DNA of 64,000 bases from Rhodospirillaceae bacterium (GCA_022843945.1 JALHMR010000002.1:198073-262072), one strand, 5' to 3'; shown: positions 26,975 to 44,519, counted from the stretch's first letter. Numbers and translations: made by a program. The notes: a model not told the origin generated them from the sequence alone.

Positions 26975-26992
26975 AGCGCGCTGAGCCGGACG

Positions 26993-27934: not shown

Positions 27935-27941
27935 CGAAACC

Positions 27942-28913
27942 TCAGGTGCTGTTGGGCAGCTTCTGGAACTGGCGCCGCAGACGATCCCAGAACGTCTCCG
28001 GCGCGCCGCGCTCGCAGCGCGTGATGTACTGCCGCACGTCGTCGCTCAGGCGGTAGATGCCGGACGAGCGGCGGGCCGACGAGCGAACGGCCATGGTCGT
28101 CGCGTCGACGATGGCCCGCAGGCTCTGGCTGACGAGGCCGTTGTAGAAGCCCTTGGCCGTCATGCCGGCGGCGGCGCGCATCAGGCTGAGCCAGGGCGTG
28201 CCGAACTTGTACTCAATGAACAGCGTGTTGCGGACCGCGTAGTAGTAGCGCCCGCGGCTCCACTGGATGCGGGCTTCCGGGTCGACGCGATGTCGGACGA
28301 TCAGCTCCGGTGCGTACTTGATGTAATAGCCGAGATTGAGGATGCGATAGCAGAGGTCCCGTTCTTCGCCGCCGAAGAACAGTGTGGCGTCGTAGCCGCC
28401 CGCAGCCTCGAAGGCGTGACGGCGGACCGCGTAGCCGGCACCGACGAAGCGGGTGGCGTGGAACTCCTCCGCCGAGCGCGGACGAAGAGCGGCCGGGTAG
28501 TCCCAGGACACGTCGTCGTCCTCGCCGGTGTAGTAGTTCAGGATGCGAAAGGCGACCGCGCCGAGCTCCGGCTCCCGGTCGAGCCGCTGGACGACACGTG
28601 TCAGCATGTGCTCGTCGGCGAAAACCGCGTCGTTGTCGATCGCCACGACGATCGGTGCATCGCCGATATGCGTGGCGATATTGCGGCCCATGGCGACACC
28701 GACGTTCCGGCCGAGCTCGCGGAGCACGACGTTGGCCTTGCCGCTGGCGAAGGCGCGCAGGCGCGCAACGTTCGCGGGCGTGCTGCCCTGGTCGACGATA
28801 TGTACATTCAGGGTGACGCCCCGCTGCGCCAGGGCGCTCTCGATGGCATCGATTGTCTCGTCGATCCGGTTCCAGGACAGGACGACGACATCAACCTTCG
28901 GCATTACGATCAT
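27942..28913 (-). CDS. Glycosyltransferase family 2
   Basis: A 323-residue GT2 protein. VDVVVLSWNRIDETIDAIESAL at the N-terminus, VHIVDQGSTPAN, and PIVVAIDNDAVFADEH with the DND metal-binding triplet. FFGGEERDLCYRILNLGY contains the acceptor/base region of rhamnosyl-type GT2 enzymes. I start at ATG 28913, where GAGGAAA is 5-6 bases upstream, rather than at 28943. It lies 7 bases after the next GT2 gene in the operon order and 7 before the previous one. Confidence 0.83.
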   Translation of the reverse strand: MIVMPKVDVVVLSWNRIDETIDAIESALAQRGVTLNVHIVDQGSTPANVARLRAFASGKANVVLRELGRNVGVAMGRNIATHIGDAPIVVAIDNDAVFADEHMLTRVVQRLDREPELGAVAFRILNYYTGEDDDVSWDYPAALRPRSAEEFHATRFVGAGYAVRRHAFEAAGGYDATLFFGGEERDLCYRILNLGYYIKYAPELIVRHRVDPEARIQWSRGRYYYAVRNTLFIEYKFGTPWLSLMRAAAGMTAKGFYNGLVSQSLRAIVDATTMAVRSSARRSSGIYRLSDDVRQYITRCERGAPETFWDRLRRQFQKLPNST

Positions 28914-28949
28914 GGAGTTTCCTCGGTTGAAAGGTCGAAACACGCCGCT

Positions 28950-30125
28950 CTATGAAGGCAAGTGGCTGCTGTTGTCACGGATCGAGGCCGCCGGCGTCCA
29001 GATCCGGAAGCGCTGGCCGCGCAAGGCGCGCCAGACGCCGACGCCGGTCGCCACGAATGACCACAAGGCGTCCACCACGACCGTCACGATCGGCAACCGC
29101 CAGTAACGGTCCACGAAGATGATGATGGTGGCGGTGAGCACGGCGCTGACCGCGATGGAAAGGCCCGCGGCCCGGGTTATGGCGGCCAGGCCGAAGACCG
29201 CGGCGAAGGCAAGAAACACGACGGTGAACCAGCGCAACAGTTTGTGGGAGACGTACTTGTAGGCGGTCAGCAGGCCGAGCCGGCGCAAGCGGGGCCAGAG
29301 CAGGCGATGCGAAACGAAGGCCTGGCACGAGATGCGAACCTTGCGGCGGAACTCTTCCGCGGCATTGGGCACGGAGCGCTCGAAGGCGCGTACGTCCGGC
29401 GCCCGGACGATGCGATAGCCCTCGCAGAGGACGCGAAGCGACAGGTACATGTCGTCGGCGACGCTTCGCGGGATGGGGCGGTACAGATGCCGGCGAACCG
29501 CGTAGAGCGAACCGTCGGCCCCCATCACAGAGCCCGTATCGCTCTCGAGCTGCTTGATCCATTCCTCCAGCCGCCAGTAGAGCGAGCCGGTGGTGGCCGT
29601 GGCTGTCTCTCCGACATTCACGTAGGTGAGATGGCCGCAGACGCAGCCGACATCGGGAGCCTGGAAGTAGCGGGCCATGTTGACCAGGGCGCCCGGCTCG
29701 ATATGAACGTTGGCATCGGTCAGGACGAGGATGTCGCCGGTCGCCAGGGCCGAAATCCGGTTGAGGCCGTAGGCCTTGCCACGACGCACGGGAGAGACGA
29801 CCAGGTCGATCTGCGAGGCGTAGGACTTGAGGATTTCCGTCGTTCCGTCGTCCGCGCCGTCGACATAGACCAGGATCTGGAGATGGCCGAGCCGTCGCCG
29901 CAGCTCGAGGCAGTTCTCGATCTTGGCCCGGATGACCGGGGCCTCGTTATAGGCGCAGACGCAGATGGAGAACGACACCGCAAGCGGCGGCGCAGCGCGC
30001 TTCACTAATGCGGGCCGCCACCAACGCATAAACGAAAGTGATAGGGGATACGTCCCGAAAGGGTGAAGGGCGATCAGTAGAGATATGCCGGCCGCGCCGA
30101 ACAGCAGGAAAGCGGCTGCGTCCAC
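28950..30125 (-). CDS. Membrane-bound glycosyltransferase family 2
   Basis: A 391-residue processive-type GT2 protein. One N-terminal membrane helix (LLFGAAGISLLIALHPFG), a catalytic domain with SICVCAYNEAPVIRAKIENC, VYVDGADDGT, TDANVHIEPGAL and ADDMYLSLRV, then two or three C-terminal helices (FTVVFLAFAAVFGLAAI; SAVLTATIIIFV). The start is GTG 30125, with GGAGG 5 bases upstream. First gene of a minus-strand operon of three glycosyltransferases, divergent from the chain-length/kinase gene. Whether it makes a polymer or adds a single sugar is not clear. Confidence 0.83.
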   Translation of the reverse strand: MDAAAFLLFGAAGISLLIALHPFGTYPLSLSFMRWWRPALVKRAAPPLAVSFSICVCAYNEAPVIRAKIENCLELRRRLGHLQILVYVDGADDGTTEILKSYASQIDLVVSPVRRGKAYGLNRISALATGDILVLTDANVHIEPGALVNMARYFQAPDVGCVCGHLTYVNVGETATATTGSLYWRLEEWIKQLESDTGSVMGADGSLYAVRRHLYRPIPRSVADDMYLSLRVLCEGYRIVRAPDVRAFERSVPNAAEEFRRKVRISCQAFVSHRLLWPRLRRLGLLTAYKYVSHKLLRWFTVVFLAFAAVFGLAAITRAAGLSIAVSAVLTATIIIFVDRYWRLPIVTVVVDALWSFVATGVGVWRALRGQRFRIWTPAASIRDNSSHLPS

Positions 30126-30390
30126 ATCAACCTCCAATGGGGATTGCTAGGACCAGAAAATGGTAACGCGGGGTGAATGCATCACGAAATCTTTCGGGGA
30201 TTGTCCTTGGCCGGATGGAACCGTGGCCGTGGCAATTTCGTGTGCAAACTGAGGCCACGAAAGATGGCGAAGTTCGTTGCTTTAAATGAGCTTGGGCAAT
30301 CTTATTTGATGCCAAGCGCCACAGAAGCGCATGCGTGATTTTGTTCCCTCCGGGGCAGCTTTGGCCTCCCAAACGATGGGCGAATGATTG

Positions 30391-32712
30391 ATGAGCTACT
30401 ATCAACCTGCGTCGTTTCCGGGGCGCCGCCGCTCCGGATCCGGTTCCCTCGAGCATCGGCCGTCTCGTAACGGCCTCTATGCTGAATCAGATCCCTCGAT
30501 GTCGGAGCAGCTGGCGCTGTACCCCTCGGGGCGCGGCGCGGAAGGTGTGGCCTATCCGTCCGAGCGCAGCCTGGGCCAGATCTTCTCGGTGCTCTGGCGC
30601 CGGAAGTATCTGATCCTCGCCACGGCGCTCTTTGTCGGGTTCGCCAGCTACCTGATCTCCCTCCAGCTCGTCCCGCGCTTCCTGGCGCAGGGCATACTGG
30701 CCATCGAGACGCGGCCGCTCTACATGCCGCAGCTCGGCAATGTGGTGCCGCCGATGCCGCCGGATGTGGCTGCGGCCCGGAGCGAGGCGCAGATCCTGAA
30801 ATCGCGCGAGCTCATCGAGACCGTTTCTCGGCGGCTCAAGCTCGACGAGGACCCGGAGCTCAACCCCTATATCCGGGAAGCGTCGTTCTTCGATGAGCTT
30901 CAGAGCTCCGTCAAGTCGGGCATCAATGGAGGGCTTCGCTTCCTGGGCCTGGCGCCGGCGCCGATGGAAAGCGACATCGCCAAGGACGATCTCGTCTGGG
31001 CAGCGGTCGTCGACAATGTGACCCGCAACCTGGCGGTTCGTACCGACGGTCGGAGCTACGTGATCTACGTCGAGTTCGAGAGCGAAAGCCCGCAGGTCGG
31101 CGCGGCGGTGGTGAACACCCTGATGGAGATGTTCATTACCCGCCAGGTCGAAACCGCCTCCAAATCCATGGTCGATGCGAATGTATGGGTGAAGGAGCGG
31201 GCGGCAGAACTACGGCGCAGCGTCGATGAAGCCGACCAGCAGGTGCAGGCCTATCGCAGCCGATATGCCCTGATCGATACCCGCATGGGCAGCGTCAGCT
31301 CGCAGCAGTTGAGCGAGATCAACGGCGCTCTCACCATGGCGCGCACCGAGCGTGCCCAGGCTGAGGCCCGTTACGGGCGGGCCCGGGACGAGGCCAGCGG
31401 TCGCAGCGGCACTCCGGATGCGGCCAGCGAGGTCCTCGCCTCGCCGCTGATCCAGAAGCTGCGTGAGCGTGAAGCCGAGCTGATCTCGCGCGAAGCGGAG
31501 ATGTCGATGCGGCTCGGCGAAAGCCATCCGCACCGCCGGGCGGCGCGTCACGAGATCACCAATCTGCAGGCGCACATCGACAAGGAGATCAACAAAATCC
31601 TGCGTTCGTTGCAGAGTCAGGTGGTCGTGGCACAGTCGCGCGAGCAGACCCTCGAGCGCCAGTTGCGGGACAACACCGGCCGGGCCGTGAAGGTGGCCGA
31701 GACCGAGGTTGAGCTGCGGCAGCTGGAGAAGGAAGCCGAGACCAAGCGGAACGTCTACCAGTCGTTCCTGGCCACGGCGCAGCAGACCGCCGAGCCGTCG
31801 CGGATCAACCAGTCGAACGCGCGGATCGCCTCCACCGCCGTGCCGCCGACGGTGCCGTTCAGCCCGCGCAAGAAGTGGTTCCTGGTCTCCGGCCTGTTCA
31901 TCGGCCTGCTTCTGGCAGCCGGTGTGGTCCTGCTGATGGCGGAACTGGATCGCGGCTTCGAGACGATTGCCGAACTCGAGGACGCAACCGGTCTGCCGGT
32001 GCTGGGCGCGGTGCCGATGCTGAAGCGGGTCAAGAAGGGCTCGGCCCTGACCCGCGAGGTGGTGCAGCGTCCCAACTCGGCGGTGTCGGAGACCATCCGT
32101 GGCCTCCGGGTTGCCCTGCGCTCACGCTCGAAGAAGGGCGCCTCGCAGGTGCTGCTGGTGACGTCGTCCGAGCCCGGCGAGGGCAAGACCTCGCTGGTCA
32201 GCTCGCTCGGCTTCCTGTCGGCGCGTGACGGCATGCGCGTCCTGATCGTGGACTCCGACCTGCGGCGGCCGCGCATCCACCGGCTGTTCCGTGGTGCTCC
32301 GGCGGCCGGCGGCCTCCAGGACGTGCTGCGTGGCACGCAGGCCTGGATCCAGGCCGTGCGCACCGACGAGGAGTCGGGTGCGGACTACCTGACCGCCTAT
32401 GACCGCACGGACAGCCCGGTGGCGCTGCTCAGCTCCGGCCACTGGCACGAGTTCCTGCGGCAGGCGCGGCGGATCTACGACCTGGTCATCCTGGACTCGC
32501 CGCCGATCATGCAGGTCTCGGATGCGCTGACCCTCGCCGATTACGCGGATACCGTAATCTTCGTGGTCGGCTACAAGACGACCCGTCGCCAGACGGTCCA
32601 GGAGGCCCTGCGGCGCTTCGCTGCCACCGGTCGCCCGGTTCTGGGTGCGGTGCTATCGAAGGTGGCCGGCAAGGTTCCCGTGCTGCAGTACTACAGCGGT
32701 TACGCAACCTGA
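30391..32712 (+). CDS. Polysaccharide co-polymerase with bacterial tyrosine kinase domain (Wzz/BY-kinase)
   Basis: A 773-residue inner-membrane protein. The Wzz domain covers about residues 50-520 between helices YLILATALFVGFASYLI and FLVSGLFIGLLLAAGVVLL, with long coiled coils between. The cytoplasmic kinase part has Walker A SEPGEGKTS (about 594), Walker A' VLIVDSDLRRPR (about 619) and Walker B DLVILDSPP (about 696). The C-terminus has only a small Tyr set (QYYSGY). This ExoP/Wzc-type fusion controls chain length and export. A strong terminator follows. Confidence 0.92.
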   Translation: MSYYQPASFPGRRRSGSGSLEHRPSRNGLYAESDPSMSEQLALYPSGRGAEGVAYPSERSLGQIFSVLWRRKYLILATALFVGFASYLISLQLVPRFLAQGILAIETRPLYMPQLGNVVPPMPPDVAAARSEAQILKSRELIETVSRRLKLDEDPELNPYIREASFFDELQSSVKSGINGGLRFLGLAPAPMESDIAKDDLVWAAVVDNVTRNLAVRTDGRSYVIYVEFESESPQVGAAVVNTLMEMFITRQVETASKSMVDANVWVKERAAELRRSVDEADQQVQAYRSRYALIDTRMGSVSSQQLSEINGALTMARTERAQAEARYGRARDEASGRSGTPDAASEVLASPLIQKLREREAELISREAEMSMRLGESHPHRRAARHEITNLQAHIDKEINKILRSLQSQVVVAQSREQTLERQLRDNTGRAVKVAETEVELRQLEKEAETKRNVYQSFLATAQQTAEPSRINQSNARIASTAVPPTVPFSPRKKWFLVSGLFIGLLLAAGVVLLMAELDRGFETIAELEDATGLPVLGAVPMLKRVKKGSALTREVVQRPNSAVSETIRGLRVALRSRSKKGASQVLLVTSSEPGEGKTSLVSSLGFLSARDGMRVLIVDSDLRRPRIHRLFRGAPAAGGLQDVLRGTQAWIQAVRTDEESGADYLTAYDRTDSPVALLSSGHWHEFLRQARRIYDLVILDSPPIMQVSDALTLADYADTVIFVVGYKTTRRQTVQEALRRFAATGRPVLGAVLSKVAGKVPVLQYYSGYAT

Positions 32713-32756
32713 AGACTTGAGCCTGCCGGCCTGTTCAGGGCCGGCTCGACAAAGCG

Positions 32757-32788
32757 ACGGCGAGCCTAACGGCTCGCCGTTTGCTTTT
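32757..32788 (+). terminator. Rho-independent terminator after the Wzz/BY-kinase gene
   Basis: A perfect 10-base-pair stem (arms 32757-32766 and 32771-32780, loop TAAC) is followed by a T-rich tract (TTGCTTTT), 45 bases after the stop codon. A second GC hairpin just before it (GCCGGC...GCCGGC) may assist. Confidence 0.82.
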
Positions 32789-32992
32789 GGGAAGTGCGGC
32801 GGGAATTCTCGCTGATGCCCTGTCGCGACCGTGACCGTCTGGCGACGGCTCAGCGACCGCGGCAACCCGACATCCTCCTCTAAAGTATTTTTGATCGCTG
32901 CCGCCAAGCTGCGGCGGTTGGCATTCAAGCGGCGCAGTGCCGCTGCGCTGCATGGTGGGAGCAGTTCGCTCCGCAGTGCGTTTTAAACGCGC

Positions 32993-33157
32993 CTAGAAGA
33001 ACAAGCCGACGACGAAACCGAAAATCATCGAAACCAGAGCGACGAGTCCGAATGCAACAACCGTGGCCGGGCGCTCAGGCGCGTCCATCGTGTGTTCACG
33101 GCTCAGCTCCGACAGTGACTCTGGCCGTGGCAACGGTATGCGTTTCGGTTCTGACAT
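32993..33157 (-). CDS. 54-residue single-pass membrane peptide, unknown function
   Basis: A short frame from ATG 33157 to TAG 32993. The protein has a Pro/Arg/Glu-rich start (MSEPKRIPLPRPESLSELSR) and then one strong membrane segment at the C-terminus (VVAFGLVALVSMIFGFVVG). AGAGG stands 7 bases before the ATG. It lies alone on the minus strand in the 694-base gap between the chain-length gene and the exoY-like gene. The split between charged head and membrane tail is what a real small protein shows, not a chance frame. No family recognised. Confidence 0.6.
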   Translation of the reverse strand: MSEPKRIPLPRPESLSELSREHTMDAPERPATVVAFGLVALVSMIFGFVVGLFF

Positions 33158-33406
33158 TTATGACCTCTGCTGCTCACAAAGCTGCGTTATGACGCTGATT
33201 TACCGTGATGTTTTCGAGGAGCGGAGCCAACAAATTATCATAATAGGCACACGCGCCAAGCGGCTTTGAATCGATTTAACTAGGGGTACCAAAACACGGC
33301 CTTGCGCGCCCTAGCGTAACGCTGGCCGGATAGAGGGAGGATCGCAGAACGCTCCGGAGCGGAGGCGGAGCGGTTTGACTGGGAGCCGAACGGAGGACGA
33401 GGACGT

Positions 33407-34147
33407 ATGTTGGAAGTTTATAGCCGGGATGCGGGTTCGCTGCAAAACCGCGACAGCTTGGTCGGTTTTGCCCGGCGGCGCGTCGATGCGCGGCCCACTC
33501 AAAACACGGCGTCTCTTCGCCTCGCGCATGCCGGCCCGGCCGGCTCGTTCGTGAAACGGACGGTCGATATCCTGGGCGCGGCGGCGATGCTGCTGGCGCT
33601 GGCGCCGGTGATGCTCATCCTCGCGCTGCTCGTCCGCCTGGACGGCGGCCCGGCCCTGTTCCGCCACAGCCGTATCGGCGCCGGCGGCCGCACCTTCGGC
33701 TGCCTGAAGTTCCGCAGCATGTGCCTGGACGCGGACAAGCGGCTGCAGGAGCTGCTGGAACGTGATCCGGCGGCGCGCGCCGAATGGGAGCGGGACTACA
33801 AGCTGCGCAACGACCCGCGCATCACGTCGGTCGGCCGCTTCCTGCGCCAGACCAGCCTCGACGAGCTGCCGCAGCTGTTCAACGTCCTGGCCGGCACCAT
33901 GAGCCTGGTGGGCCCCCGGCCGATCGTGCGCGGCGAACTGCCGCGCTACGGCACGGCGATCCAGGAGTATCTGCGCTGCCGGCCCGGCATCACCGGCCTG
34001 TGGCAGACCAGCGGCCGCAACGACGTCGACTACGCCAAGCGCGTGGACCTCGACTGCCGCTATGCCCGCACCTGGAGCCTGAAGCAGGACATCGTCATCC
34101 TGTTCCGCACCGTGGGCGTGGTGCTGAAGCAGTCCGGCGCCTACTGA
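33407..34147 (+). CDS. ExoY-type initiating sugar-1-phosphate transferase
   Basis: A 246-residue bacterial sugar transferase. After a 45-residue lead it has one membrane segment ([24 protein letters not shown]), then [42 protein letters not shown] and [15 protein letters not shown]. It transfers a sugar phosphate (often galactose or glucose) to undecaprenyl phosphate and starts the repeat unit. It lacks the large N-terminal membrane domain of WbaP, so the ExoY class is meant. GGAGGACGAGGAC precedes the ATG. Confidence 0.92.
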
Positions 34148-34167
34148 GCGAAGGCTTTCCCGCCAGT

Positions 34168-34211
34168 CCGGCCGCTTCCGCCACCAAGCGTCGAAGCGGC
34201 CGGCCCTTTTT
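34168..34211 (+). terminator. Terminator after the exoY-like gene
   Basis: A perfect 10-base-pair stem CCGGCCGCTT/AAGCGGCCGG (34168-34177 and 34194-34203) with a 16-base loop is followed by CCCTTTTT. It lies 22 bases before the next start codon, so it may partly separate the glycosyltransferase gene from exoY. Confidence 0.6.
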
Positions 34212-34232
34212 CCCGACCCAAGTTGGCTGCCC

Positions 34233-35435
34233 ATGAAAATCGCCGTCATCGATCCCTCACTGTTCACCTGGCCGTACGACCGGGCGCTGGTCGGGGGCCT
34301 GCGTAACCTCGGCCACGACGCCGTGCTGTTCGGCAAGGCGCTGTCCCGGTCCGATGCCCGGTTGCGGGATCCCGTGCTGCGCCCGATCTTCTATACCTCG
34401 CTGGCCGACACCGGCTCCTGGCCGCGCCCGCTGCTCCGCGCGGCGAAGGGCTTCAGCCATGTCGCCTCGCTCGAGCGCCTGCGCCGGGAGCTCACCCTGT
34501 GGGCGCCGGATGTCATCCATTTCCAGTGGCTGCCGCTGCCCGTGGTCGACCGCCTCTTCCTGCCGATGCTGCGGCGCATCGCGCCGACCGTGCTGACGGT
34601 CCACGACACCATGCCGTTCAACGGCTCGCCGGTTTCGGCCCTGCAGGCCTTCGGCACCGTCGACGCTTTCCGCCAGTTCGATCACTTGATCGTGCATACC
34701 GACCAGGGGCGCCAGCGCATCGCGCCGCACGCTGGCAGCGGCCTCAGCCGCGTTCCGCACGGGCTTTTGCACGACGAGGCGGTGGCCGAGGCGAAAGCGC
34801 CGACGGCCGGCGGCGGGAAGGGGCCCGTGACCCTGCTCATGTTCGGGCAGATCAAGCCCTACAAGGGCATCGACGTGCTGTTGCGCGCCCTGGCGGCCCT
34901 CGATCCCGAGACCCGTTCCCGCTGCCGCGTCTGCATCGCCGGAAAGCCCTACATGGACACCGCGCCCCTGGTGGAGTTGCGCCGCGCGCTCGGCCTCGAG
35001 GACGTCGTTTCCTTCCGCTTCGAGTTCGTCCCCGATGCGGAACTCACTGCGCTTTTCGAGCAATCGGCCGGGGTGTTGTTCCCCTACCGCGAGATCGAGG
35101 CCAGCGGCGCGCTGATGGCGGCCCTGGCCCATGCCAAGCCGGTCATCGCCTCGAAGCTCGGCACCTTTGCCGAACTGCTCGAGGACCAGCGCCACGGGCT
35201 GCTGGTGCCGCCCGATGATGTCGCAGCCCTGACGCAGGCCATCACGCGTTTCGTTCGCGAAGATGGGTTGCGGTGGCGGCTGACCGAGGAAATCGTGCAG
35301 CTGAAAGCCTCCATTCCGTCCTGGGACGCGATCGCCGCCCAGACCGTCGCCGTCTACGACCAGGCGGCCCGGCGCTGGGGCCGGACGGGCGAGAACACCG
35401 TTGCCCTGCAGTCGCGCCCCGGCCGCGGCACCTGA
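34233..35435 (+). CDS. Glycosyltransferase family 4 (GT-B fold)
   Basis: A 400-residue protein. KIAVIDPSLFTWPYD starts the N-terminal Rossmann domain. LLMFGQIKPYKGIDVLLRAL is the start of the GT1/GT4 donor domain, and EIEASGALMAALAHAKPVIAS the nucleotide-sugar E-x7-E motif (Glu residues in EIEASG...). It adds a sugar to the growing lipid-linked oligosaccharide at the cytoplasmic face. The first base of the ATG lies 22 bases after a terminator-like hairpin. Substrates unknown. Confidence 0.88.
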   Translation: MKIAVIDPSLFTWPYDRALVGGLRNLGHDAVLFGKALSRSDARLRDPVLRPIFYTSLADTGSWPRPLLRAAKGFSHVASLERLRRELTLWAPDVIHFQWLPLPVVDRLFLPMLRRIAPTVLTVHDTMPFNGSPVSALQAFGTVDAFRQFDHLIVHTDQGRQRIAPHAGSGLSRVPHGLLHDEAVAEAKAPTAGGGKGPVTLLMFGQIKPYKGIDVLLRALAALDPETRSRCRVCIAGKPYMDTAPLVELRRALGLEDVVSFRFEFVPDAELTALFEQSAGVLFPYREIEASGALMAALAHAKPVIASKLGTFAELLEDQRHGLLVPPDDVAALTQAITRFVREDGLRWRLTEEIVQLKASIPSWDAIAAQTVAVYDQAARRWGRTGENTVALQSRPGRGT

Positions 35436-35671
35436 GGACCGGCCTCCGACGATCCCGGCCGACCGGTGGCCGTAGCGGCCCGATACCGCCCTGACGGGGC
35501 CCCGATCCTGCGTCCTTGCCCGCATCCATCCGCCTTTGACCGCCCCTGGCAGGGACAGCCAGAAGGCCGCTGCCTCGTGTCGCTGCGCCTGACTGATCCG
35601 CCGCGGGCTGTCCTCCGAGGGGCGTTCAACGAGGGGCGTGCGGGCAAGCCCGCCGGGCGCTCAGGGCGTGC

Positions 35672-37030
35672 TCAGGCTTCTCTGGGAGCGGGCCGGTGGG
35701 GCTCCGGCTCGTCGTCGATGGTCGCCGGCTCCGGCCAGCGCACCGTACGCCGGCGGACCGGTATCGCGGCGCGCGCCGGATCGCTGTGCCAGGCCATCAG
35801 GGCGATGAAGGCCGCGTGCATCGTGCCGTTGAGCAGGTAGCCACCCAGGAACAGGTAGAGGTACAGGATCGCCACGCAGAGCACCTTGTCCCGCGTGCCA
35901 TGGGTGAGGGCGGTCGTCACGTAGACCAGGAGGCCGAGGAAGGCGAGGAAGCCGTACTCGAAGAGCAGCTTGATCCAGGTCGGATCATGGGCGAGGTAGC
36001 CGCCGACGCGCGAAGCCTTGACGAAGTCGTCGATGGCGCCCGGACCGAAGCCGAAGAAGAAGCCGCGGGCCGAGTCGAGCAGGAAGTCGCGGATCAGGTA
36101 GATCGGCGAGATGAAGCGGGCGAAGCCGCTGGACTCCGGCTCGCCGAATTCGCCGAGGCGGTCGGTGACCTTGGCGAGGTTCATCGATTCGCCGGCGATG
36201 ATCAGAAAGGCGGCGACGATGAAGCCCCAGACCAGCAGCTGGATGTTGCCGCGGCGGTAGAGGATCCAGGGCAGGAAGAGCACGACCATCGACAGGCCGG
36301 TGCCGGAATAGGAGACGACCAGGGCTGCGCAGTAGATCACCAGGCGCCACAGGCTCTGCCGGCGGGTGAGCTCGATGATGATGGACAGGCCCAGGAACTG
36401 GGAGAAGAACGACGGCTCCAGGAAGAACACGCCGTTGCTCTTCATGATCTCCGATTCGTAGGCCAGCGGGATGATGACGTTGAAGGTCTCTCGGTACAGG
36501 TACTCCTCGGGCACGTACGTGTCGATCGGGAACATCATCTCCGCGCCGACCACGAACTGCGAGGCGAACTGCAGGATGCCGGCGACCGCCGCCACGATCA
36601 TCAGGTTCTGATAGGAATGCAGCGTGTGCTCGAACATGCCGTCGCGGTGGCGAAGCTTGAAGGCGTAGAGCACATAGATCGCGAAGAGGTAGATGAACGA
36701 CATCAGCGATGCCTTCTCGTCGGCGATCGCCAGCGAGATGGTCATCAGCGCCATGACGCCGCAGAAGAACATCGTCAGCGCCGGGCTTACCAGAAGGCGG
36801 CCGCGGAGCAGCATGTAGCCGAAGACGAAATAGGTCAGGATGAACGAGAGGGCGATCTGGCTCGTGCCGCCGATCGGCAGGGCAAAGCGCTGCAGATAGA
36901 TACAGACGAAGAGGATCGTGGTGACGCCAAAGGCCGAGACCTTGTCCACGGCGGGCAGGAAAGCGGCGGGGTGCATAGGCTGCGGCATGTGGCCCCGGCG
37001 GTGCGGAGCGGCATAGGCCCGTCGCAACAT
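35672..37030 (-). CDS. O-antigen ligase/Wzy-like polysaccharide polymerase
   Basis: A 452-residue polytopic membrane protein with about eleven hydrophobic segments (for example ALSFILTYFVFGYMLL, LWRLVIYCAALVVSYSGTGLSM). A large loop around residues 290-345 contains GPGAIDDFVK. The SGTGL segment and the late loop are features of Wzy/WaaL proteins. In this setting it should polymerise repeat units in the periplasm. AGAGG 6 bases before ATG 37030 supports that start. It is separated from the export lipoprotein gene by a terminator-like hairpin. Confidence 0.75.
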   Translation of the reverse strand: MLRRAYAAPHRRGHMPQPMHPAAFLPAVDKVSAFGVTTILFVCIYLQRFALPIGGTSQIALSFILTYFVFGYMLLRGRLLVSPALTMFFCGVMALMTISLAIADEKASLMSFIYLFAIYVLYAFKLRHRDGMFEHTLHSYQNLMIVAAVAGILQFASQFVVGAEMMFPIDTYVPEEYLYRETFNVIIPLAYESEIMKSNGVFFLEPSFFSQFLGLSIIIELTRRQSLWRLVIYCAALVVSYSGTGLSMVVLFLPWILYRRGNIQLLVWGFIVAAFLIIAGESMNLAKVTDRLGEFGEPESSGFARFISPIYLIRDFLLDSARGFFFGFGPGAIDDFVKASRVGGYLAHDPTWIKLLFEYGFLAFLGLLVYVTTALTHGTRDKVLCVAILYLYLFLGGYLLNGTMHAAFIALMAWHSDPARAAIPVRRRTVRWPEPATIDDEPEPHRPAPREA

Positions 37031-37060
37031 GGCGACCTCTCGGCTGATGGGTGTTGGACT

Positions 37061-37108
37061 AAAAAGGGCGGCTGTCCGCGCCCTGGCTAAGGAGCCGGGG
37101 CGCGGACA
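37061..37108 (-). terminator. Terminator-like hairpin between export lipoprotein and polymerase genes
   Basis: An 11-base-pair stem (arms 37073-37083 and 37098-37108) is followed on the minus strand, after seven bases, by TTTTT (37061-37065). It lies 21 bases after the stop of the minus-strand export gene. It may reduce read-through into the polymerase gene. Confidence 0.5.
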
Positions 37109-37129
37109 ACGGCTGGAACGAGGCTAGGC

Positions 37130-37714
37130 TTAGAACCAGCGCTCGGGGACGTTGACCACGTCGCCCGGCACGAGATAGTTCATCTCGCTCGCCGACTTCG
37201 GCTCGCGATCGCCGGTCTCCTCGCGGATGACCGAGATCTTCTTGTTGCTGGCGCGATAGGTGTAGCCGCCGGCGAGGGCCACGGCGTTCAGGATGGTCAT
37301 GCCTGACTGGTAGGGATAGGCGCCCGGACGCTGCACCTCGCCCAGGATGTACACCGGCCGGTACCGGACGACGGCGACGTTGACCTTGGGGTTGTTGAGC
37401 ATGCCGCCGCGGCCGCCGAGCTGGGCCTCGAGCTGCTTCTCGACGTCGCGGGGGGTCTTGTTCTTGACCGGAATGGCGCCGGCGAGCGGCAGGGCGATGG
37501 CGCCCGTGTCGTCGACGTCGAATTCGCCGGACATGTCCTGTTGGCCGAAGACGGTGACCGCGATCCGGTCGCCGTGCCCGAGGCGATAGGCCTGGGGAGA
37601 TTCCGGTCCGCTGAGCTGGGTGGTGGGGCCGGTCCCGCCGCATCCTGCCAACGCAAGCACGGCAACGACGGGAATGATAAGGGCGATACTTTGATACCAG
37701 GGCTTACGTGTCAT
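37130..37714 (-). CDS. Polysaccharide export lipoprotein (Wza/OtnA family)
   Basis: A 194-residue protein with a lipobox (VLALAGCGG, Cys at about residue 25). The polysaccharide export domain starts at YRLGHGDRIAVTVFGQQDMSGEF, followed by the SLBB-type region VYILGEVQRPGAYPYQSGMTIL. It is short compared with E. coli Wza (about 380), which is common for alphaproteobacterial ExoF-type proteins. It forms the outer-membrane or periplasmic part of the export channel and works with the Wzz/BY-kinase. GAGGAG precedes the ATG by 8 bases. Confidence 0.9.
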   Translation of the reverse strand: MTRKPWYQSIALIIPVVAVLALAGCGGTGPTTQLSGPESPQAYRLGHGDRIAVTVFGQQDMSGEFDVDDTGAIALPLAGAIPVKNKTPRDVEKQLEAQLGGRGGMLNNPKVNVAVVRYRPVYILGEVQRPGAYPYQSGMTILNAVALAGGYTYRASNKKISVIREETGDREPKSASEMNYLVPGDVVNVPERWF

Positions 37715-37821
37715 CAGAGGTTCTCCTCAACCGTACGAGATGCGAGTCCCCCCTGCTGCTGCCCCCTAAATGCTGATTGGCGCCCCCTGCTGCCCTTGAT
37801 CTGATCGACGCTTGTGCATGG

Positions 37822-39129
37822 TCAGAACGTCTTCCGCACCCGAACCAGGGCCAGGCTGCGGCTGTAGCCCGATGAGGACGAGTTCTTCGTGTCCTGGTCG
37901 CGATAGCGATATTCGCCGTCGAGGAACAGGCCGCGGTCGAGCCGATATTTCAGCCCGATGTCGCCGCCGATGACCTCGTCTTCGCGGGGCAGCTTGTCGA
38001 AGTCGCGCGTCTGATAGACGCCGCGCACGAAAGCCACGAGATTGAAGCGCAGCTCGTGCGCCACCGTCAGGGTGTGCAGCGTGCGCCAGTAGCCCGGGCT
38101 GCCGGTATTGAAGCTCTCGGAGAACTCCTTGCGGGTTTCGGCGCGAACGCTGGTCAGCCGCGTCGGGTTCCACAGCAGCGATCCGGACCAGACGAAGTCG
38201 CCGGGCGTGCCGAGGCGGCTATCGTCGTATTTCTGCTCCTGATAGCCGACGGCCACGTCAGCGAAGATCAGCCCGCCGAGATCCGCGGTGGCGCCAAGCT
38301 CGGCACGGTAGCCGTTCGAGCTGCGCTGGAAACCGGAATTGTCGGTCGTCTGGTCGTATTCGCGGTCGTTCGCCTGCAGGCGGACATAAACCTGCTCAGG
38401 GCCCAGATAGCGGAAGCCGAAGGTGCCGTTGACGAACGCTTCGTTCCTGTCGCGCTCGCCGGTGCGGATCGGCACGCCGGCCGTGGTTGACGCACCGCCG
38501 TCGTACTCCTGGCGGACCACGCCGGCCTCGAGGCGGGGAACGAAGCGGCCGAATTCGGTCTGGCCGTTGACGGCGCCGCGATAGACCATGAACTCGAGCG
38601 GCTCGTTCGATCCGGTCTCGTCCGGCGCGTCGCGCGGCTCGGTCAGCCGCCGCACGCTGGCTTCGGCGCCGAGACTGCTCACTGCGTCGATGTCGTAGCG
38701 GCCGCGGCCATCGAGATTGGCGTTGTAGAAATCTTCGCGGCCATTGTCGGCAAACTTGTTGTAGTCGAGCTGACCGTCGAGGCCGAAGAAGTGCTGGGTC
38801 ATCTCGGTCTGGGCGCGCGCGCCGACTGAGCCATTGAAAATGAAGTCGCTCTTCTTGCCGGTCTGCGTGGCGAAGATGTTGTCGTCATACGACAGGCCGG
38901 CCGCGATTCTCGGATTCACCCGGAAGCCGCCCACCCGGTAGCCGAGCGCCGGCTCCGCCGTGTCATGGCGCTGGATCACGTCCTGGCGCCGGTCCGGCAC
39001 ATCGGCCGTGGGCGCAGGGGCGCGGATGTCGCGCTCAGGCGTGTTCTGGGCGTGCACGGCTGAAGCGACCAGCAAGGCCGCTATCGCGGTCAAAGTCGAA
39101 AAGGTGACACTGTAGCGCCGCGGTAACAT
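37822..39129 (-). CDS. Outer-membrane beta-barrel protein of the polysaccharide island
   Basis: A 435-residue protein. I start at ATG 39129 (MLPRRYSVTF), giving a signal peptide cut at SAVHA/QNTPERD. The body has repeated short amphipathic strands ending in aromatic residues (GLSYDDNIFATQTG, FDGEYRYRD-like LDGEYRYRDQDT, terminal LALVRVRKTF with a final Phe). These are signs of a BAM-inserted barrel. Similar barrels occur near exopolysaccharide export genes and may serve as the outer-membrane pore beside the short Wza-like lipoprotein. The upstream 695 bases hold its promoter. Confidence 0.75.
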   Translation of the reverse strand: MLPRRYSVTFSTLTAIAALLVASAVHAQNTPERDIRAPAPTADVPDRRQDVIQRHDTAEPALGYRVGGFRVNPRIAAGLSYDDNIFATQTGKKSDFIFNGSVGARAQTEMTQHFFGLDGQLDYNKFADNGREDFYNANLDGRGRYDIDAVSSLGAEASVRRLTEPRDAPDETGSNEPLEFMVYRGAVNGQTEFGRFVPRLEAGVVRQEYDGGASTTAGVPIRTGERDRNEAFVNGTFGFRYLGPEQVYVRLQANDREYDQTTDNSGFQRSSNGYRAELGATADLGGLIFADVAVGYQEQKYDDSRLGTPGDFVWSGSLLWNPTRLTSVRAETRKEFSESFNTGSPGYWRTLHTLTVAHELRFNLVAFVRGVYQTRDFDKLPREDEVIGGDIGLKYRLDRGLFLDGEYRYRDQDTKNSSSSGYSRSLALVRVRKTF

Positions 39130-39824
39130 AGTCCGCAGTCTCCCCCGTCTTACAGCCAACGAGTCGACCTCGTTGGCACCCTGTAAAGCCTTGGTAGGCA
39201 TAGGCATTTTCCGGCCACGCTCCGCCTTCGGTCAGCCCCGTTGGCGTAAACTGCGCCACAATATGAACGAAATCTAAGGCCATGCAAAGACTGCCGTTTC
39301 GCTTCATATGCCTGTGTTGCGGAAATGCATCGCCAGGACTGCTCAACTACACCGAAAGAGGTAAGCGCTCACGGATACTGCGCGTTTCCCCGCCGCCTCA
39401 CCCCTTTAAGGGCTCACACTCGCCCCGGCCGACGCCGTTGAGCGAGCGCTTCGGTACATGGATATGGAGCGCCGCTTCTCCGGTCCCAACGCCCGGGTGG
39501 GCGGCTGGCCGGTCGATTCCGGCGTACCTCTTTCAGGCTTGCCGTGCTGATGCGCCCTCCGGGTGTTTCCCTATTCCCTAATGACTTAGTTCTTTGTCGA
39601 ATGGCTCTTTTCCTGCCCGGCCGGTGCGGTATGCACCCCATTTCGGCGGGTTGATTTGTGTCACGACAACCTTATGTCTCGGAAGCTCACGCCGCAGTGA
39701 CCCTGGTTGGCTTCGGGGGGTCTGCGTCACTCGAAAGATTCGGTCGTGCGCGGGAATCGCAGCAGCGATTCGCGAAGGGATGTCTGTCACTCGAGGCAGA
39801 GGACAGCATAGGAGGCGAAACAGA
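39130..39824. other. Non-coding region between divergent barrel and response-regulator genes
   Basis: About 695 bases without a convincing gene. Short open frames here have no ribosome site and no protein-like composition. It must carry the promoters of the minus-strand export operon and of the plus-strand signalling operon. I see two similar GTCACTCGA words (near 39727 and 39787) but no strong palindrome. Confidence 0.5.
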
Positions 39825-40649
39825 ATGACGACCACCGAAGCCATTTCCGAGGCCGAAACCCGGCCTCCCGTCGAAGCGAAAGCCGAGGTGCCGACCGTCG
39901 GCGCCCGCGTCCTCTTCGTCGACGACGACGAGCTCTTCCGGGAATCGCTCAGCCGAAATCTCGAGGAGGCCGGCTTCACGGTCGTCGATTTCGACGGCGG
40001 CGGCGGCGCGCTGCGCTACTTCGAGGATGGCGGCCAGGCGGATATCGCCCTGCTCGACTGGAAGATGCCCGAGATGACGGGCATCGAGCTGCTCCAGCGT
40101 CTCAAGGAGCGCAATATCGAGCTGCCGGTGATTTTCCTGACGTCGCTGGGCGGCCAGTTCTACGAGGAGACGGCGCTGATGAACGGCGCGGTCGACTTCG
40201 TCGACAAGTCGCGCAGCTTCTCGATCCTGCTCAACCGCATCGGTTCCGTGCTGTCCGGGCAGAAGGCGCCGCACTCGCCGGTGCTGCCGGGCACGCCGCG
40301 CGCCGTGATGCGCCGCGGCGACCTCGAACTCTGCCTGAACTCGAATCGCGCCTTCTGGACCAAGAAGCGGGTCAACCTGACCCTCGCCGAGTTCAAGATC
40401 GTCCACTTGCTCGCCTCGCAGACCGATCGCGATGTGTCGCATCGCGAAATCTACGACATCGTCCGCGGCCCGGGCTTCGTCGCCGGCGACGGCGAGAACG
40501 GCTATCGGGCGAACGTGCGCACTTTCATCAAGCGCATCCGGCAAAAATTCGGAGAGGTCGATGACAAGTTTGACCGGATCGCCACGTATTCCGGCTTTGG
40601 TTACCGCTGGGCGACGGAAGGCGAAACGATCGAGCAGATCGACGGATGA
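39825..40649 (+). CDS. OmpR/ChvI-like response regulator
   Basis: A 274-residue regulator, started at ATG 39825 behind AGGAGGCG. A 28-residue lead precedes the receiver domain (VLFVDDDELFRESL, phospho-acceptor Asp78 in LLDWKMPEMTG, Lys in DFVDKSRS). The C-terminal winged helix runs from about residue 165 (LELCLNSNRAFWTKKRVNLTLAEFKIV...) to RIRQKF and YSGFGYRW. The FVDKSR wording, instead of the usual KPF, is unusual. It should pair with the kinase starting 1 base after its stop. The location suggests control of the adjacent export genes. Confidence 0.9.
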   Translation: MTTTEAISEAETRPPVEAKAEVPTVGARVLFVDDDELFRESLSRNLEEAGFTVVDFDGGGGALRYFEDGGQADIALLDWKMPEMTGIELLQRLKERNIELPVIFLTSLGGQFYEETALMNGAVDFVDKSRSFSILLNRIGSVLSGQKAPHSPVLPGTPRAVMRRGDLELCLNSNRAFWTKKRVNLTLAEFKIVHLLASQTDRDVSHREIYDIVRGPGFVAGDGENGYRANVRTFIKRIRQKFGEVDDKFDRIATYSGFGYRWATEGETIEQIDG

Positions 40650-40650
40650 C

Positions 40651-41691
40651 GTGAGCCGGGGCCACAAGCCCTGGCGTTCGCTCTCGACCAAGATCGCCCT
40701 CCTGCTTGTCGTCTTCGCGGTCTTTCCGGCGGTTGCCTATGAGCAGCTGCGCCTCGGCGCTGAGGGCAATTTCTACGGGCTGGCCGTCGCCTATGCGGCG
40801 GCTGTCGGGCTACTGCTCTGGGTCCTCGTCGGCCTTCTCCTGAACCTGCGCCGCCTCGAGACGGCGGCGCGCTCCGCCGGAACCGACAGGACGGTGCGGC
40901 TCGCCTCGCTCAACCGCCTGCCCGATCTCGCCGGCGTGGTGCGGGAATTCGACCGCATGGCCGACAGCCTGCGGGCGGCGGCCGAAACCAGCCGTATCGC
41001 GGCGGCCGAAAACGCGCATGCGTTCAAGACGCCGATCGCCACGATCACCCACGCGCTCACCCCGTTGCGCAACACGGTCCCCGCCGGCAACAGCCGCGGC
41101 CGGCGTTCAGTCGAGCTTATCCAGATGACAATCGACCGGCTCGATGCGCTGGTGATGGCGTCACGGGAGATGGAGGAGGCGTTCGCCAAGACCCTGCATC
41201 CGCCGCGCGACCGTATCGAGCTCAGCGCCGTCATCCGTCACCGCGTGTCGGCGCGGGAGGGGCGCGGCGATGCCGGGGCGGTTCGCCTGGTCAGCGATAT
41301 CGGTCCCGATATCGTGGTTGATGGCAACGCCGATCTGATCTGCACCGCCTTCGACAATGTCATCGATAACGCGGTGGGTTTCACCAGGCCGGGCGGAACG
41401 GTGTTGGTCAGCGTTCGTCGCGAGGGGCCGCAGGCCCTCTGCTGCATCGACGACGAGGGGCCCGGCTCGCCGAGCGATGATACCGAGCGCATGTTCGAGC
41501 GCTACTACACTTACCGGCCGTCGGCCGACCCGGCCGAATCGGCGCCGGACTTCGAGAACTCCGGCGATTTCGGCATCGGTCTCTGGGTTGCGCGTCGCAG
41601 CATCGAGGCTCTGGACGGCAAGATCTGGGCCGAAAACCGCCCGACCGGCGGGATGCGTATCGTCATAACTTTGCCGCTCGCGGACAGCTAG
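40651..41691 (+). CDS. Sensor histidine kinase with minimal periplasmic loop
   Basis: A 346-residue kinase from GTG 40651, 1 base after the regulator stop. Two membrane helices (IALLLVVFAVFPAVAYEQ; YGLAVAYAAAVGLLLWVLVGLLL) enclose only about 12-15 residues, so there is no extracytoplasmic sensor domain. The H-box NAHAFKTPIATI (His123) has the PhoQ-like HAxKTP form. N-box DNVIDNAVGF, then the D-box DDEGPG and G-box FGIGLWVARR make up the ATPase domain. It probably senses the membrane itself or a partner protein, with the next gene as a candidate. Confidence 0.88.
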   Translation: MSRGHKPWRSLSTKIALLLVVFAVFPAVAYEQLRLGAEGNFYGLAVAYAAAVGLLLWVLVGLLLNLRRLETAARSAGTDRTVRLASLNRLPDLAGVVREFDRMADSLRAAAETSRIAAAENAHAFKTPIATITHALTPLRNTVPAGNSRGRRSVELIQMTIDRLDALVMASREMEEAFAKTLHPPRDRIELSAVIRHRVSAREGRGDAGAVRLVSDIGPDIVVDGNADLICTAFDNVIDNAVGFTRPGGTVLVSVRREGPQALCCIDDEGPGSPSDDTERMFERYYTYRPSADPAESAPDFENSGDFGIGLWVARRSIEALDGKIWAENRPTGGMRIVITLPLADS

Positions 41692-41726
41692 GCCATGCGG
41701 CATCTCTGCTGTTCCGGAGAGTGTTG

Positions 41727-42947
41727 ATGTACGACGGCGCGCTCGATCTATTGGAAACCCGGCTGATGCGTCGCGCCGATGTGACGCTCCACGTCATGGA
41801 TACCGGCGGCGTGCTCTTCGATGCGCCGGCTCAGCGGCTGTACGGCACCAACACGACTGCGACCTTCATCTGGTGTCTGCTCGAGGATGACATCGCTCCG
41901 CGCGAGATCGCCCTTCGGGTTCATCAGACCTTCGGCGTCGACCTGCCGGACGCCGAAAACCTGGTGAGCGAAAGCTTCCGCCAGTGGCGGGATCTCGGGC
42001 TGATCGGGTTTGGGGTGGAACCGTCACCACCGCCCTCGCTCGTCACCTCGGGAGCGGCGCGCCGCGTGCGCCCCAGGACGGCGCCACCGCCGCTGATCCG
42101 CGGCGCCCGCTATCAGCGCGACTACCGCCTGCTGGACACCCGGATCCGGTTGCGCTTCTCGTCGCGTACCCTGCTGGCTTACGTGGAGCCGCTCCTGGCG
42201 CCGCTGGCGGATGACGACCTCGATGAGTTCCGCGATCTGCTCTACCTGATCCAGATGCCGGACCGCATCCTGCTCTGCAACCAGGAGCGGGTCATCGACG
42301 AATGTGAAGGCTGGAGCGGCATCATGCCGATGCTCAAGGCCTCGCTGGTGCTCTACGCGCTCGACCGCAGCGATGATTTCGCCGCCGTGCATGCGGCGGC
42401 CCTCACCCGCGGCAAGAAATGTCTTCTGATTCCCGGTGAGTCCGGGCAGGGCAAGAGCACGCTGTCCGCGGCCCTGGTGGCCGCCGGGTTCCGGCTTCTG
42501 GGCGACGATACGATCGTCTTGTCCCGCCAGGCGCTGCAGGCGCGGGCGATGCCGTTCGGCATCTGCCTGAAGAAGGGGTCGTGGCCGCTGCTGGCCTCAC
42601 GCTTTCCGGCGCTGGCCGACGGCCCGATCCACGATCGCGTCGACGGCAAGCGGATCCGCTACCTGCTGCCGGCCAATCACGGCTCGTGGACCTCCTCGGG
42701 CTTTCAGGCGCCGATCGGGACCGTCGTCTTTCTCGACCGTCGCGAGGCCGTCGAGCCGGCCCTCTCTTCTCTCGATCCCGGGGCGGCGTTCCCGCGCTTT
42801 CTGCGGGAGTTCTATCCCCTGCGGGGCGGCCTGGATGCCCAGAAGGTCGAGCGCCTCGTGCGCTGGGCGGCCGGGCTTCAGTTTGTCGAGCTGCGCTACA
42901 GCAGCCTCGACGATGGCGTCGCGCAGCTCATGGAGCTCGGATCATGA
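41727..42947 (+). CDS. PqqD-like peptide-chaperone domain fused to HPr-kinase-like P-loop domain
   Basis: A 406-residue protein. Residues about 10-95 (VLFDAPAQRLYGTNTTATFIWCLLED ... VSESFRQWRDLGLIG, quoted in part) look like a PqqD/RiPP-recognition winged helix. Residues about 215-400 look like an HPr kinase domain, with P-loop GESGQGKSTLSAAL (about 237) and the following LLGDDTIVL. HprK-related proteins with PqqD partners are known in uncharacterised alpha/betaproteobacterial cassettes, usually as separate genes. Here they are one chain. It starts 35 bases after the kinase gene (GGAGA 6 bases before ATG) and overlaps the next gene by 4. Function unknown. Confidence 0.75.
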   Translation: MYDGALDLLETRLMRRADVTLHVMDTGGVLFDAPAQRLYGTNTTATFIWCLLEDDIAPREIALRVHQTFGVDLPDAENLVSESFRQWRDLGLIGFGVEPSPPPSLVTSGAARRVRPRTAPPPLIRGARYQRDYRLLDTRIRLRFSSRTLLAYVEPLLAPLADDDLDEFRDLLYLIQMPDRILLCNQERVIDECEGWSGIMPMLKASLVLYALDRSDDFAAVHAAALTRGKKCLLIPGESGQGKSTLSAALVAAGFRLLGDDTIVLSRQALQARAMPFGICLKKGSWPLLASRFPALADGPIHDRVDGKRIRYLLPANHGSWTSSGFQAPIGTVVFLDRREAVEPALSSLDPGAAFPRFLREFYPLRGGLDAQKVERLVRWAAGLQFVELRYSSLDDGVAQLMELGS

Positions 42948-44056
42948 TGTCGACCGCTACGGCGCTTCGCCTGGTTGCTGACGCCTTGCAGCCCGATGCG
43001 GGCGGTGTGGCCGCGGCGGTGCGTCGTTCGCGGGTTGCGGACTGGACGTCACCGCTGATCTTCGCCAACGAGAACCTGGTGGCCACCGCGGCCTATGCCG
43101 GGCTGGTGGCCGCCGGCCGCAGCCACGAAGTGCCGGACGATGTGCGCGAGTATCTCGCCTTCCTTCACCAGCACAACACCGACCGCAACGAGGTCGTCCG
43201 GGGCCAGGCGCTGGAGCTGCTGCGGGCCTTCGCCGAGGCGGGTGTCGACGTCATCCTGCTCAAGGGCGTGCACTCGTTGCTGGCCGGGCTCTACGCCGAT
43301 CCCGGGGCGCGCATGGTGCGCGACATCGATGTCCTGATCCGCCCGGAGAAGATCGAGCCGGCGCTCGCCGTACTGGAGCGGCTGGGCTACTCGATCATGG
43401 TCAAGTACGACGCGGACCAGCACGCCTACGCCGAGTTCGGCCGCGAGGGCGTGCCCTGCGCGGTCGATCTCCATCTCGAGATCGTCGACGTGCCGCACGT
43501 CTTCTCGGCCCGCGACGTCTGGCCGCGTTCGCTGCCTTTGAGTGTCGACGGCGTACCGTTTCGCATCCCGTCACCGACGGACGCGTTGCTGCACCACCTG
43601 ATCCACGCGCAGATCCACTATCGCGGCGGGCACTATTGGGCGGCTATCGAGCTGCGTCAGCTGATGGAGTTCGCCACCCTGGTGCGGCGCCACGGCAGCG
43701 CGATCGACTGGCGGCACGTGGAAGAGGTCTTCAACCGCCAGGGGCTGGGAACAGCGGTGCAGTCGTACGCCCTGGTCGCCGAGCGCTTGCTGGCCTTGCC
43801 CTGGCCGCTCGCCGGACGGCCGACGCTGGCGGCCTCGCTCCATGCAACGCGCAGCATCGCCCAGCTTCGCTTCCCGCTGCTCAAGACCGCGCTCGTGCCG
43901 TGGTCGAACCTGCGCGCCGCCTTCGCCCATCATCGCCTGAGCGCGCTCTATCCGCGCGTCGACAGCGAGTTCGGGCGCATGCTCCGGCACACGCTGCAGT
44001 TCCTGCGCAAGACCGACCCGCGCGCCTTCGTGACCCGGCTGATCCGCGAGCGCTGA
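42944..44056 (+). CDS. Nucleotidyltransferase-like protein (PF14907 type)
   Basis: A 370-residue protein. ILLKGVHSLLAGLY and ARMVRDIDVLIRPE (Asp about 127 and 129) form the DxD of an uncharacterised nucleotidyltransferase family. VDLHLEIVDVPH supplies a third acidic position. Such proteins are seen next to HprK-like and PqqD-like genes in some peptide-modification and polysaccharide loci. It starts in the stop of the fusion gene (ATGATG). No radical-SAM, asparagine-synthase-like or short precursor gene is seen nearby. Substrate unknown. Confidence 0.72.
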   Translation: MMSTATALRLVADALQPDAGGVAAAVRRSRVADWTSPLIFANENLVATAAYAGLVAAGRSHEVPDDVREYLAFLHQHNTDRNEVVRGQALELLRAFAEAGVDVILLKGVHSLLAGLYADPGARMVRDIDVLIRPEKIEPALAVLERLGYSIMVKYDADQHAYAEFGREGVPCAVDLHLEIVDVPHVFSARDVWPRSLPLSVDGVPFRIPSPTDALLHHLIHAQIHYRGGHYWAAIELRQLMEFATLVRRHGSAIDWRHVEEVFNRQGLGTAVQSYALVAERLLALPWPLAGRPTLAASLHATRSIAQLRFPLLKTALVPWSNLRAAFAHHRLSALYPRVDSEFGRMLRHTLQFLRKTDPRAFVTRLIRER

Positions 44057-44063
44057 CCCCGGC

Positions 44064-44519
44064 TTACCGGGGTTCGTTGTTCTTGGAGAGGCCGGCGACG
44101 ACGCCGACGGCGACCAGCGTCGCCAAGTCCCACACGTTCAGCGGTCGCGACTGCGGCAGCAAGCCGGCGAAATTGACCAGGTTGAGGTTCATCTCGGCCT
44201 CGCCCTGAACGGCCGGCGGCGTTTGCGCGGCCTTCGGCCGCCGATAGTGAAGCTTGAGGCCGAGAGCCAGCAGCCCGATCACGACGAGGAAGGTCAGGGC
44301 GGTGAGCCCGGCCGCCGCCACGTCGCTGAATTCCGACTGCAGCGCCAGGTAGAGCGTCATGGCGCTCCACAGGGCGACCATCAGCAGGCAGACGAGGCCC
44401 GCCAGGCCGACGACGGCTGCCACCAGGATCTCCGTGCCCCAGCGGCGCGGCGACAGGGCCTCGGTGGCGTTGTCTATGCCGGGAAGACCCGCCGCCAGGA
44501 GCTGGCGGAGCCCGTTCAC
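44064..44519 (-). CDS. Small membrane protein, phage-holin/YqjE-like
   Basis: A 151-residue protein from GTG 44519. Two adjacent membrane helices (GTEILVAAVVGLAGLVCLLMVALW and GLTALTFLVVIGLLALGLKL, quoted in shortened form as hydrophobic stretches around residues 28-50 and 68-92) resemble the YqjE/holin-superfamily pair. A third weak segment lies at the C-terminus (DLATLVAVGVVAGL). It follows the DUF883 gene by 11 bases, the same order as the yqjD-yqjE pair in E. coli. Probable inner-membrane stress protein. It converges on the nucleotidyltransferase gene. Confidence 0.6.
   Translation of the reverse strand: MNGLRQLLAAGLPGIDNATEALSPRRWGTEILVAAVVGLAGLVCLLMVALWSAMTLYLALQSEFSDVAAAGLTALTFLVVIGLLALGLKLHYRRPKAAQTPPAVQGEAEMNLNLVNFAGLLPQSRPLNVWDLATLVAVGVVAGLSKNNEPR

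Follow-up and report, generated by a model that had tools for sequence, protein, structure and literature searches.

The fused PqqD-HprK-like protein and the adjoining NTP_transf_5 protein of a Rhodospirillaceae bacterium probably form a RiPP-like maturation unit for small peptides whose genes are scattered over the genome, with modification, export and a possible surface role as its parts. The two genes close a four-gene operon in the window (the whole stretch of 64,000 nucleotides analysed here), which lies on contig C2 of a draft genome (82 contigs, 96.7% complete). The fusion protein combines a lasso-type leader-binding domain with an HprK-like kinase domain, it recurs together with the transferase in many genomes, and nearly all of these cassettes adjoin a gene for a small unannotated peptide with a conserved leader. 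In the genome of the window itself, three such peptides are encoded in trans, on contigs C35, C39 and C42.

Operon layout and predicted enzymes

The anatomy of the operon agrees with the earlier note on this DNA in gene coordinates, domain order and spacings, the gaps between the four genes being exactly 1, 35 and -4 bases (Table 1). Scans of the plus strand for promoter- and terminator-like sites, which are weak, returned none between the genes except intragenic ones at chance level. The histidine kinase had been described as having almost no periplasmic loop, and indeed only about 10 residues separate its two apparent membrane helices. Because a paralogue in the same genome (L172:9460-10980) keeps a long sensor domain at that place, the sensor domain of the window kinase has probably been lost. 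Matches of the pair to the Proteobacterial dedicated sortase two-component system (TIGR03787 and TIGR03785) stayed below the cut-offs (102.9 of 335.7 and 61.9 of 612.2 bits).

Table 1. Positions of the operon genes, their functional sites and neighbouring features, counted from the first letter of the window
Feature	Position	Strand	Basis or remark
BBP2_2 / TIGR03016-like outer-membrane protein	37822..39207	-	Divergent neighbour in the polysaccharide locus; outside the cassette
Response regulator, OmpR-type	39825..40649	+	Response_reg and Trans_reg_C; outside the conserved cassette
Histidine kinase without periplasmic sensor domain	40651..41691	+	GTG start, HATPase_c; compared with genome paralogue
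RRE (PqqD-fold) and HprK-like kinase fusion, 406 aa	41727..42947	+	PF05402 above cut-off; predicted model
N-terminal leader-binding (RRE) domain, residues 11-97	41757..42017	+	Sequence and fold match to lasso B1 proteins
HprK/PEPCK-type kinase domain, residues 109-406	42051..42944	+	Fold and catalytic residues
Catalytic H222	42390-42392	+	Matches BsfK residue and spacing
P-loop G237-T245	42435-42461	+	Matches BsfK residues and spacing
D260-D261	42504-42509	+	Matches BsfK residues and spacing
NTP_transf_5 nucleotidyltransferase-fold protein	42944..44056	+	PF14907, E 1.4e-46
NTP_transf_5 metal site D127/D129	43322-43330	+	Invariant residues
Terminator-like hairpin directly 3' of the NTP_transf_5 gene	44055..44074	+	Weak: regional count of such sites equals chance expectation

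The fusion protein scores 29.5 bits for PqqD (PF05402; cut-off 23.4), and its predicted model has a mean pLDDT of 87.5. The best PDB sequence matches of the N-terminal half are the lasso B1 proteins TbiB1 (E 9e-10) and TfuB1 (E 4.5e-7), and in the predicted model the same half superimposes on leader-bound TbiB1 (5v1v; Z 14.1, 1.9 A over 87 residues) and on TfuB1 (6jx3; Z 13.2). By these sequence and model comparisons, the N-terminal half is a lasso-type leader-binding RRE with the PqqD winged-helix fold, in line with the leader-binding role previously suggested for the PqqD domain. Two residues of LppB, the Asp that binds Tyr and the Phe of the pocket, were mapped onto the RRE by alignment, and the corresponding positions vary. 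A role in canonical PQQ synthesis was rejected, since the contig carries a separate, canonical pqq-like locus (L038:7300-10522) about 170 kb upstream of the fusion.

The kinase half falls below all curated HprK cut-offs (24.6 of 33.3 bits for Hpr_kinase_C and 24.6 of 240 bits for TIGR00679, the HPr(Ser) kinase/phosphatase). Its best NCBIfam match is HprK-related kinase A (TIGR04352; positions 91-280 of 280), of which it is a non-member at 69.5 bits against a cut-off of 200 and from which it also differs in being fused to an RRE. The assignment as a kinase is nevertheless supported by the fold prediction and the catalytic residues. The predicted model matches HprK (Z 13.4) and PEPCK (Z 16.6); the fold-match lists contain no lasso or LPP kinase, which says nothing against kinship. 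Residues H222, G237, G240, G242, K243, S244, D260 and D261 correspond in identity and spacing to H148, G163, G166, G168, K169, S170, D186 and D187 of BsfK, an enzyme that phosphorylates Ser3 of a lasso precursor with the aid of its RRE (PMC10368454). Thus, the H-G-G-G-K-S-D-D signature of kinase-tailored lasso clusters is present in the fusion, and among 16 homologues H222, G240, G242, K243, S244 and D260 are invariant while position 261 is Asp or Glu. Judged from sequence and predicted fold, the C-terminal half is an HprK-like kinase whose catalytic residues follow the signature seen in lasso kinases that phosphorylate peptides.

In the NTP_transf_5 protein, K107, G108, R123, D127 and D129 are invariant among 15 homologues, and its model adopts an ANT(2'')/MenT-like fold (Z 13-14) with weak resemblance to FKRP, a glycan-assembly enzyme (Z 8). 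In genome G253, one open frame of 764 codons (L031:8080-10281) encodes both NTP_transf_5 and PqqD-HprK, an arrangement which suggests that the two enzymes act together. The P-loop of the kinase in this frame appears degenerate by eye, and the protein may be a pseudokinase form.

Cassette conservation and the peptide partner

A single-sequence scan of genome contigs gave no match, and an alignment-based scan gave 74 loci. In the 31 loci examined, the pairing of fusion and transferase is repeated across Pseudomonadota and reaches Acidobacteriota; relatives of the fusion are found at 31/31 cassette loci, a peptide lies beside nearly all of them, and apart from kinase, transferase and peptide no gene is conserved between cassettes. 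Reading of the neighbourhoods in relatives revealed the peptide as a small unannotated ORF of 50-110 aa with a conserved start and a variable tail. The peptide genes are our own gene calls; when 10 of the peptides were scanned, no Pfam or NCBIfam match exceeded its cut-off, and a PDB sequence search with the peptide profile gave no match. The N-terminal region resembles those of TIGR04117 (Cys-Xaa-Xaa-Xaa repeat radical SAM target) and TIGR02811 (formate dehydrogenase region TAT target), both matching far below cut-off.

The leader follows the consensus RRxFLxxxGKFAxxTPP...AxA (in fuller form RRRFLAxCGKFAvxTPPavxLMLAxxerNYAxAxS). RRxFL, a hydrophobic stretch and AxA are features expected of a twin-arginine signal, and models of such signals matched 2 of the 10 peptides tested, both below cut-off. 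In the first eight peptides a Ser just past AxA is invariant; the candidate Ser is placed differently in distant peptides and is shifted by one position in L073. In contrast to lasso and LPP precursors, the peptides have no YxxP motif in the leader. Since this motif is missing and the LppB-equivalent RRE positions vary, the leader would have to be recognized in another way than in the lasso and LPP systems. The L-x3-G-x5-T spacing of the peptide may resemble lasso leaders; a literature search for the motif gave no match, and the likeness was not used as evidence.

The tails are diverse. In many close peptides the tail contains a second motif, NNGxGNGxxDGxPGxS, in which a Ser is conserved (for example, L025:11664-11966, L024:6162-6578, L029:8755-9309, L155:8771-9070 and L146:9488-9784); this motif is absent from the three copies in the window's genome. 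Peptides at L203:8090-8278, L204:7514-7723 and L085:343-537 end in very short, basic tails that include one or two Cys (for instance SCRGNGSKSC), in contrast to the Gly-rich tails of alphaproteobacterial peptides. In a Methylobacter MAG, five tandem divergent copies follow 3' of an HprK-like gene (L087:11620-12765).

The association between peptide and fusion extends beyond the peptides from which it was recognized. A first profile, built from eight alphaproteobacterial peptides, found unseen fusion-adjacent peptides in Pseudomaricurvus, a Rhodocyclaceae bacterium, Thalassotalea, Methylomicrobium and an Acidobacteriia bacterium (E 3e-7 to 0.03). After retraining, a peptide was detected near the fusion at 17 of the 18 best named loci (14 strong and three weak, namely L082, L087 and L088), which span Alpha-, Beta- and Gammaproteobacteria, Hydrogenimonas and an Acidobacteriia MAG; some are multi-copy, with five peptides in L087 and two in L076. 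The remaining locus, L081, is truncated where its contig ends, and L028, apparently a contig of the same genome, holds the kinase end and an adjoining peptide.

The fusion profile and the peptide profile were run independently of each other against a phylum sample of 383 genomes; the peptide profile had been trained partly on linked peptides, although most genomes of the sample were new to it. Eleven genomes contained a peptide at E<=1e-5, and ten of these were the ten best fusion genomes; the probability of this overlap is about 4e-17, or 4e-14 without the focal genome (G000) and G380, with genome relatedness not corrected. The distance between peptide and fusion in the ten genomes is at most about 1.2 kb in seven and 50-65 kb in two, and in the focal genome the peptides lie on other contigs. 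In a class sample the overlap was 8/11 (p 2e-12, genome relatedness again uncorrected). Genome G136, rated 100% complete, has a peptide gene (L146:9488-9784, on C21) but no fusion or NTP_transf_5 match at the thresholds used.

Regex and profile searches found no precursor peptide inside the window. The absence of a precursor, radical SAM or cyclase gene nearby, which had been noted before, holds for the window; elsewhere in the genome lie the three trans copies, assigned as candidate precursors by their sequences. A comparison of the region upstream of the operon with those upstream of the three peptide genes gave no 10-base word shared with the operon.

Polysaccharide genes are a recurrent minority neighbour of the cassette. 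Divergent to the window operon lies the BBP2_2 outer-membrane gene of a polysaccharide locus, which also contains Wza-, Wzc-, sugar-transferase- and glycosyltransferase-like genes. Such genes (Wza, Wzc, sugar transferase or BBP2) occur at 8/31 cassettes, compared with 0/22 control loci (Fisher p 0.009) and 2/56 more distant HprK-like loci (Fisher p 0.003), which lends moderate support, from gene context, to the link with exopolysaccharide that had been proposed. The window locus (26003-39207) resembles XrtA/PEP-CTERM loci of the Wza, BBP2_2 and Wzc type; all XrtA models matched it below cut-off, and no exosortase gene was noticed in the window.

Relation to known peptide-modifying systems

The closest likeness is to the LPP family (Popov et al. 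2026), which comprises an RRE, an HprK-like kinase, an NTP transferase and a linear precursor phosphorylated at Ser3, is often found beside capsule loci, and is described as restricted to Bacillota (PMC13381572). Shared with LPP are the presence of an RRE, an HprK-like kinase and an NTP transferase in one cluster, the lack of a cyclase, the frequent polysaccharide neighbourhood, and a linear precursor (35-200 aa) with a conserved N-terminus and a variable C-terminus. In contrast, the RRE is fused to the kinase in one frame here and is discrete in LPP; peptide alignments give the leader RRxFLxxxGKFAxxTPP here and YxxPxVLxHQxIxFETxxS in LPP; neither a SipW-type peptidase nor an MsbA-like transporter is a conserved neighbour here (TIGR02228 has a single match in the window's genome, 19.7 bits, below cut-off and on another contig); the precursors are in trans in the window's genome; and the cassette occurs in Pseudomonadota and beyond, whereas LPP occurs in Bacillota. 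Membership in LPP was rejected on the fused RRE, the different leader, and the lack of the peptidase and the transporter.

With kinase-tailored lasso peptides (paeninodin PadeK, ThcoK, pseudomycoidin PsmK/PsmN and BsfK/BsfN), the cassette shares the kinase signature, the lasso-type RRE and the accompanying nucleotidyltransferase gene. In pseudomycoidin biosynthesis, PsmK phosphorylates the lasso peptide, and PsmN, annotated as a nucleotidyltransferase, is needed for the addition of one or two hexoses to the phosphate (PMC9266682). The candidate peptides differ in having neither the C-terminal Ser nor the YxxPxL leader. A lasso cluster was rejected, given that the window's genome has no match to the B2 leader peptidase (PF13471) and that PF00733 matches for a lasso cyclase lie only off contig C2, with none at the locus or among the conserved neighbours.

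Proposed mechanism and its alternatives

The following pathway is proposed as the most likely reading. The RRE half of the fusion may recognize small peptides from genes elsewhere in the genome by their conserved leader (RRxFLxxxGKFAxxTPP...), and the fused HprK-like half could phosphorylate a Ser or Thr of the peptide, the first candidate in the close family being the Ser past AxA. Then, NTP_transf_5 may add a sugar, sugar-phosphate or nucleotide to that phosphate, after which the peptide could be exported through its signal-like leader. The sensor-less two-component pair ahead of the unit may control it, and the adjoining polysaccharide locus suggests that the product may act in or on cell-surface polysaccharide.

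The small peptides are thus regarded as putative substrates. An unlikely alternative is that they are co-inherited secreted partners or effectors and that the enzymes modify something else, such as a component of polysaccharide or a lipid carrier. This would suit the polysaccharide genes near eight of the cassettes, the signal-peptide-like leader with its very variable tails, and the weakly FKRP-like model of NTP_transf_5; however, a leader-binding lasso-type RRE fused to a peptide-kinase signature would be hard to explain otherwise, and a peptide accompanies nearly all of the 31 loci, whereas at 23 of them no polysaccharide gene was detected.

The earlier note had envisaged that the four genes form a phospho-relay or a protein-modification switch: the fusion would supply the signal of the sensor-less histidine kinase and control exopolysaccharide. 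The tight spacing, the sensor-less kinase and the divergent polysaccharide genes fit such a switch, but the response regulator and histidine kinase adjoin the cassette at 1/31 loci, that of the window, close relatives of the pair are found without cassette and without polysaccharide genes, and the peptide association would be left unexplained, so that the switch is now improbable. The two-component pair was rejected by context as a member of the cassette: the fusion and transferase recur widely without it, so that part of what the earlier note would have taken as refutation was observed, and this part of the idea is, from comparison of the loci, a local peculiarity, whereas the connection with polysaccharide loci recurs. 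The conserved companion of the cassette is a small peptide gene, and peptide modification accounts for the cassette better than would a phospho-relay that targets Wzz, HPr or the histidine kinase. A decaying copy that lost its peptide gene and sits idle, kept by its neighbours, would account for the missing adjoining peptide and for the presence of a two-component pair ahead of this cassette and no other, but is highly improbable with all catalytic residues and both frames intact and three peptide genes surviving elsewhere.

Judged from the open-licence literature, the fused RRE-kinase and the unannotated peptide family appear to be new, and the enzyme set is related to that of LPP. In a broader reading, to which we give an even chance, Pseudomonadota and neighbouring phyla share a RiPP-like family represented by the cassettes: a single RRE-kinase chain and a single NTP_transf_5 enzyme modify several, sometimes scattered peptides, the leader doubles as a twin-arginine-like export signal, and the products are secreted phospho- or phosphoglyco-peptides, tied in a subset of hosts to surface polysaccharide. 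Precursors escape notice when they lie away from their enzymes. If the maturation reading is correct, phosphate-modified linear peptides would extend from Bacillota (LPP, published in May 2026) to other phyla, the two-gene systems of Gram-negative bacteria would offer a simple setting in which to learn how the NTP_transf_5 enzyme acts, and the polysaccharide neighbourhood recurring in both LPP and the cassette would make a surface role testable.
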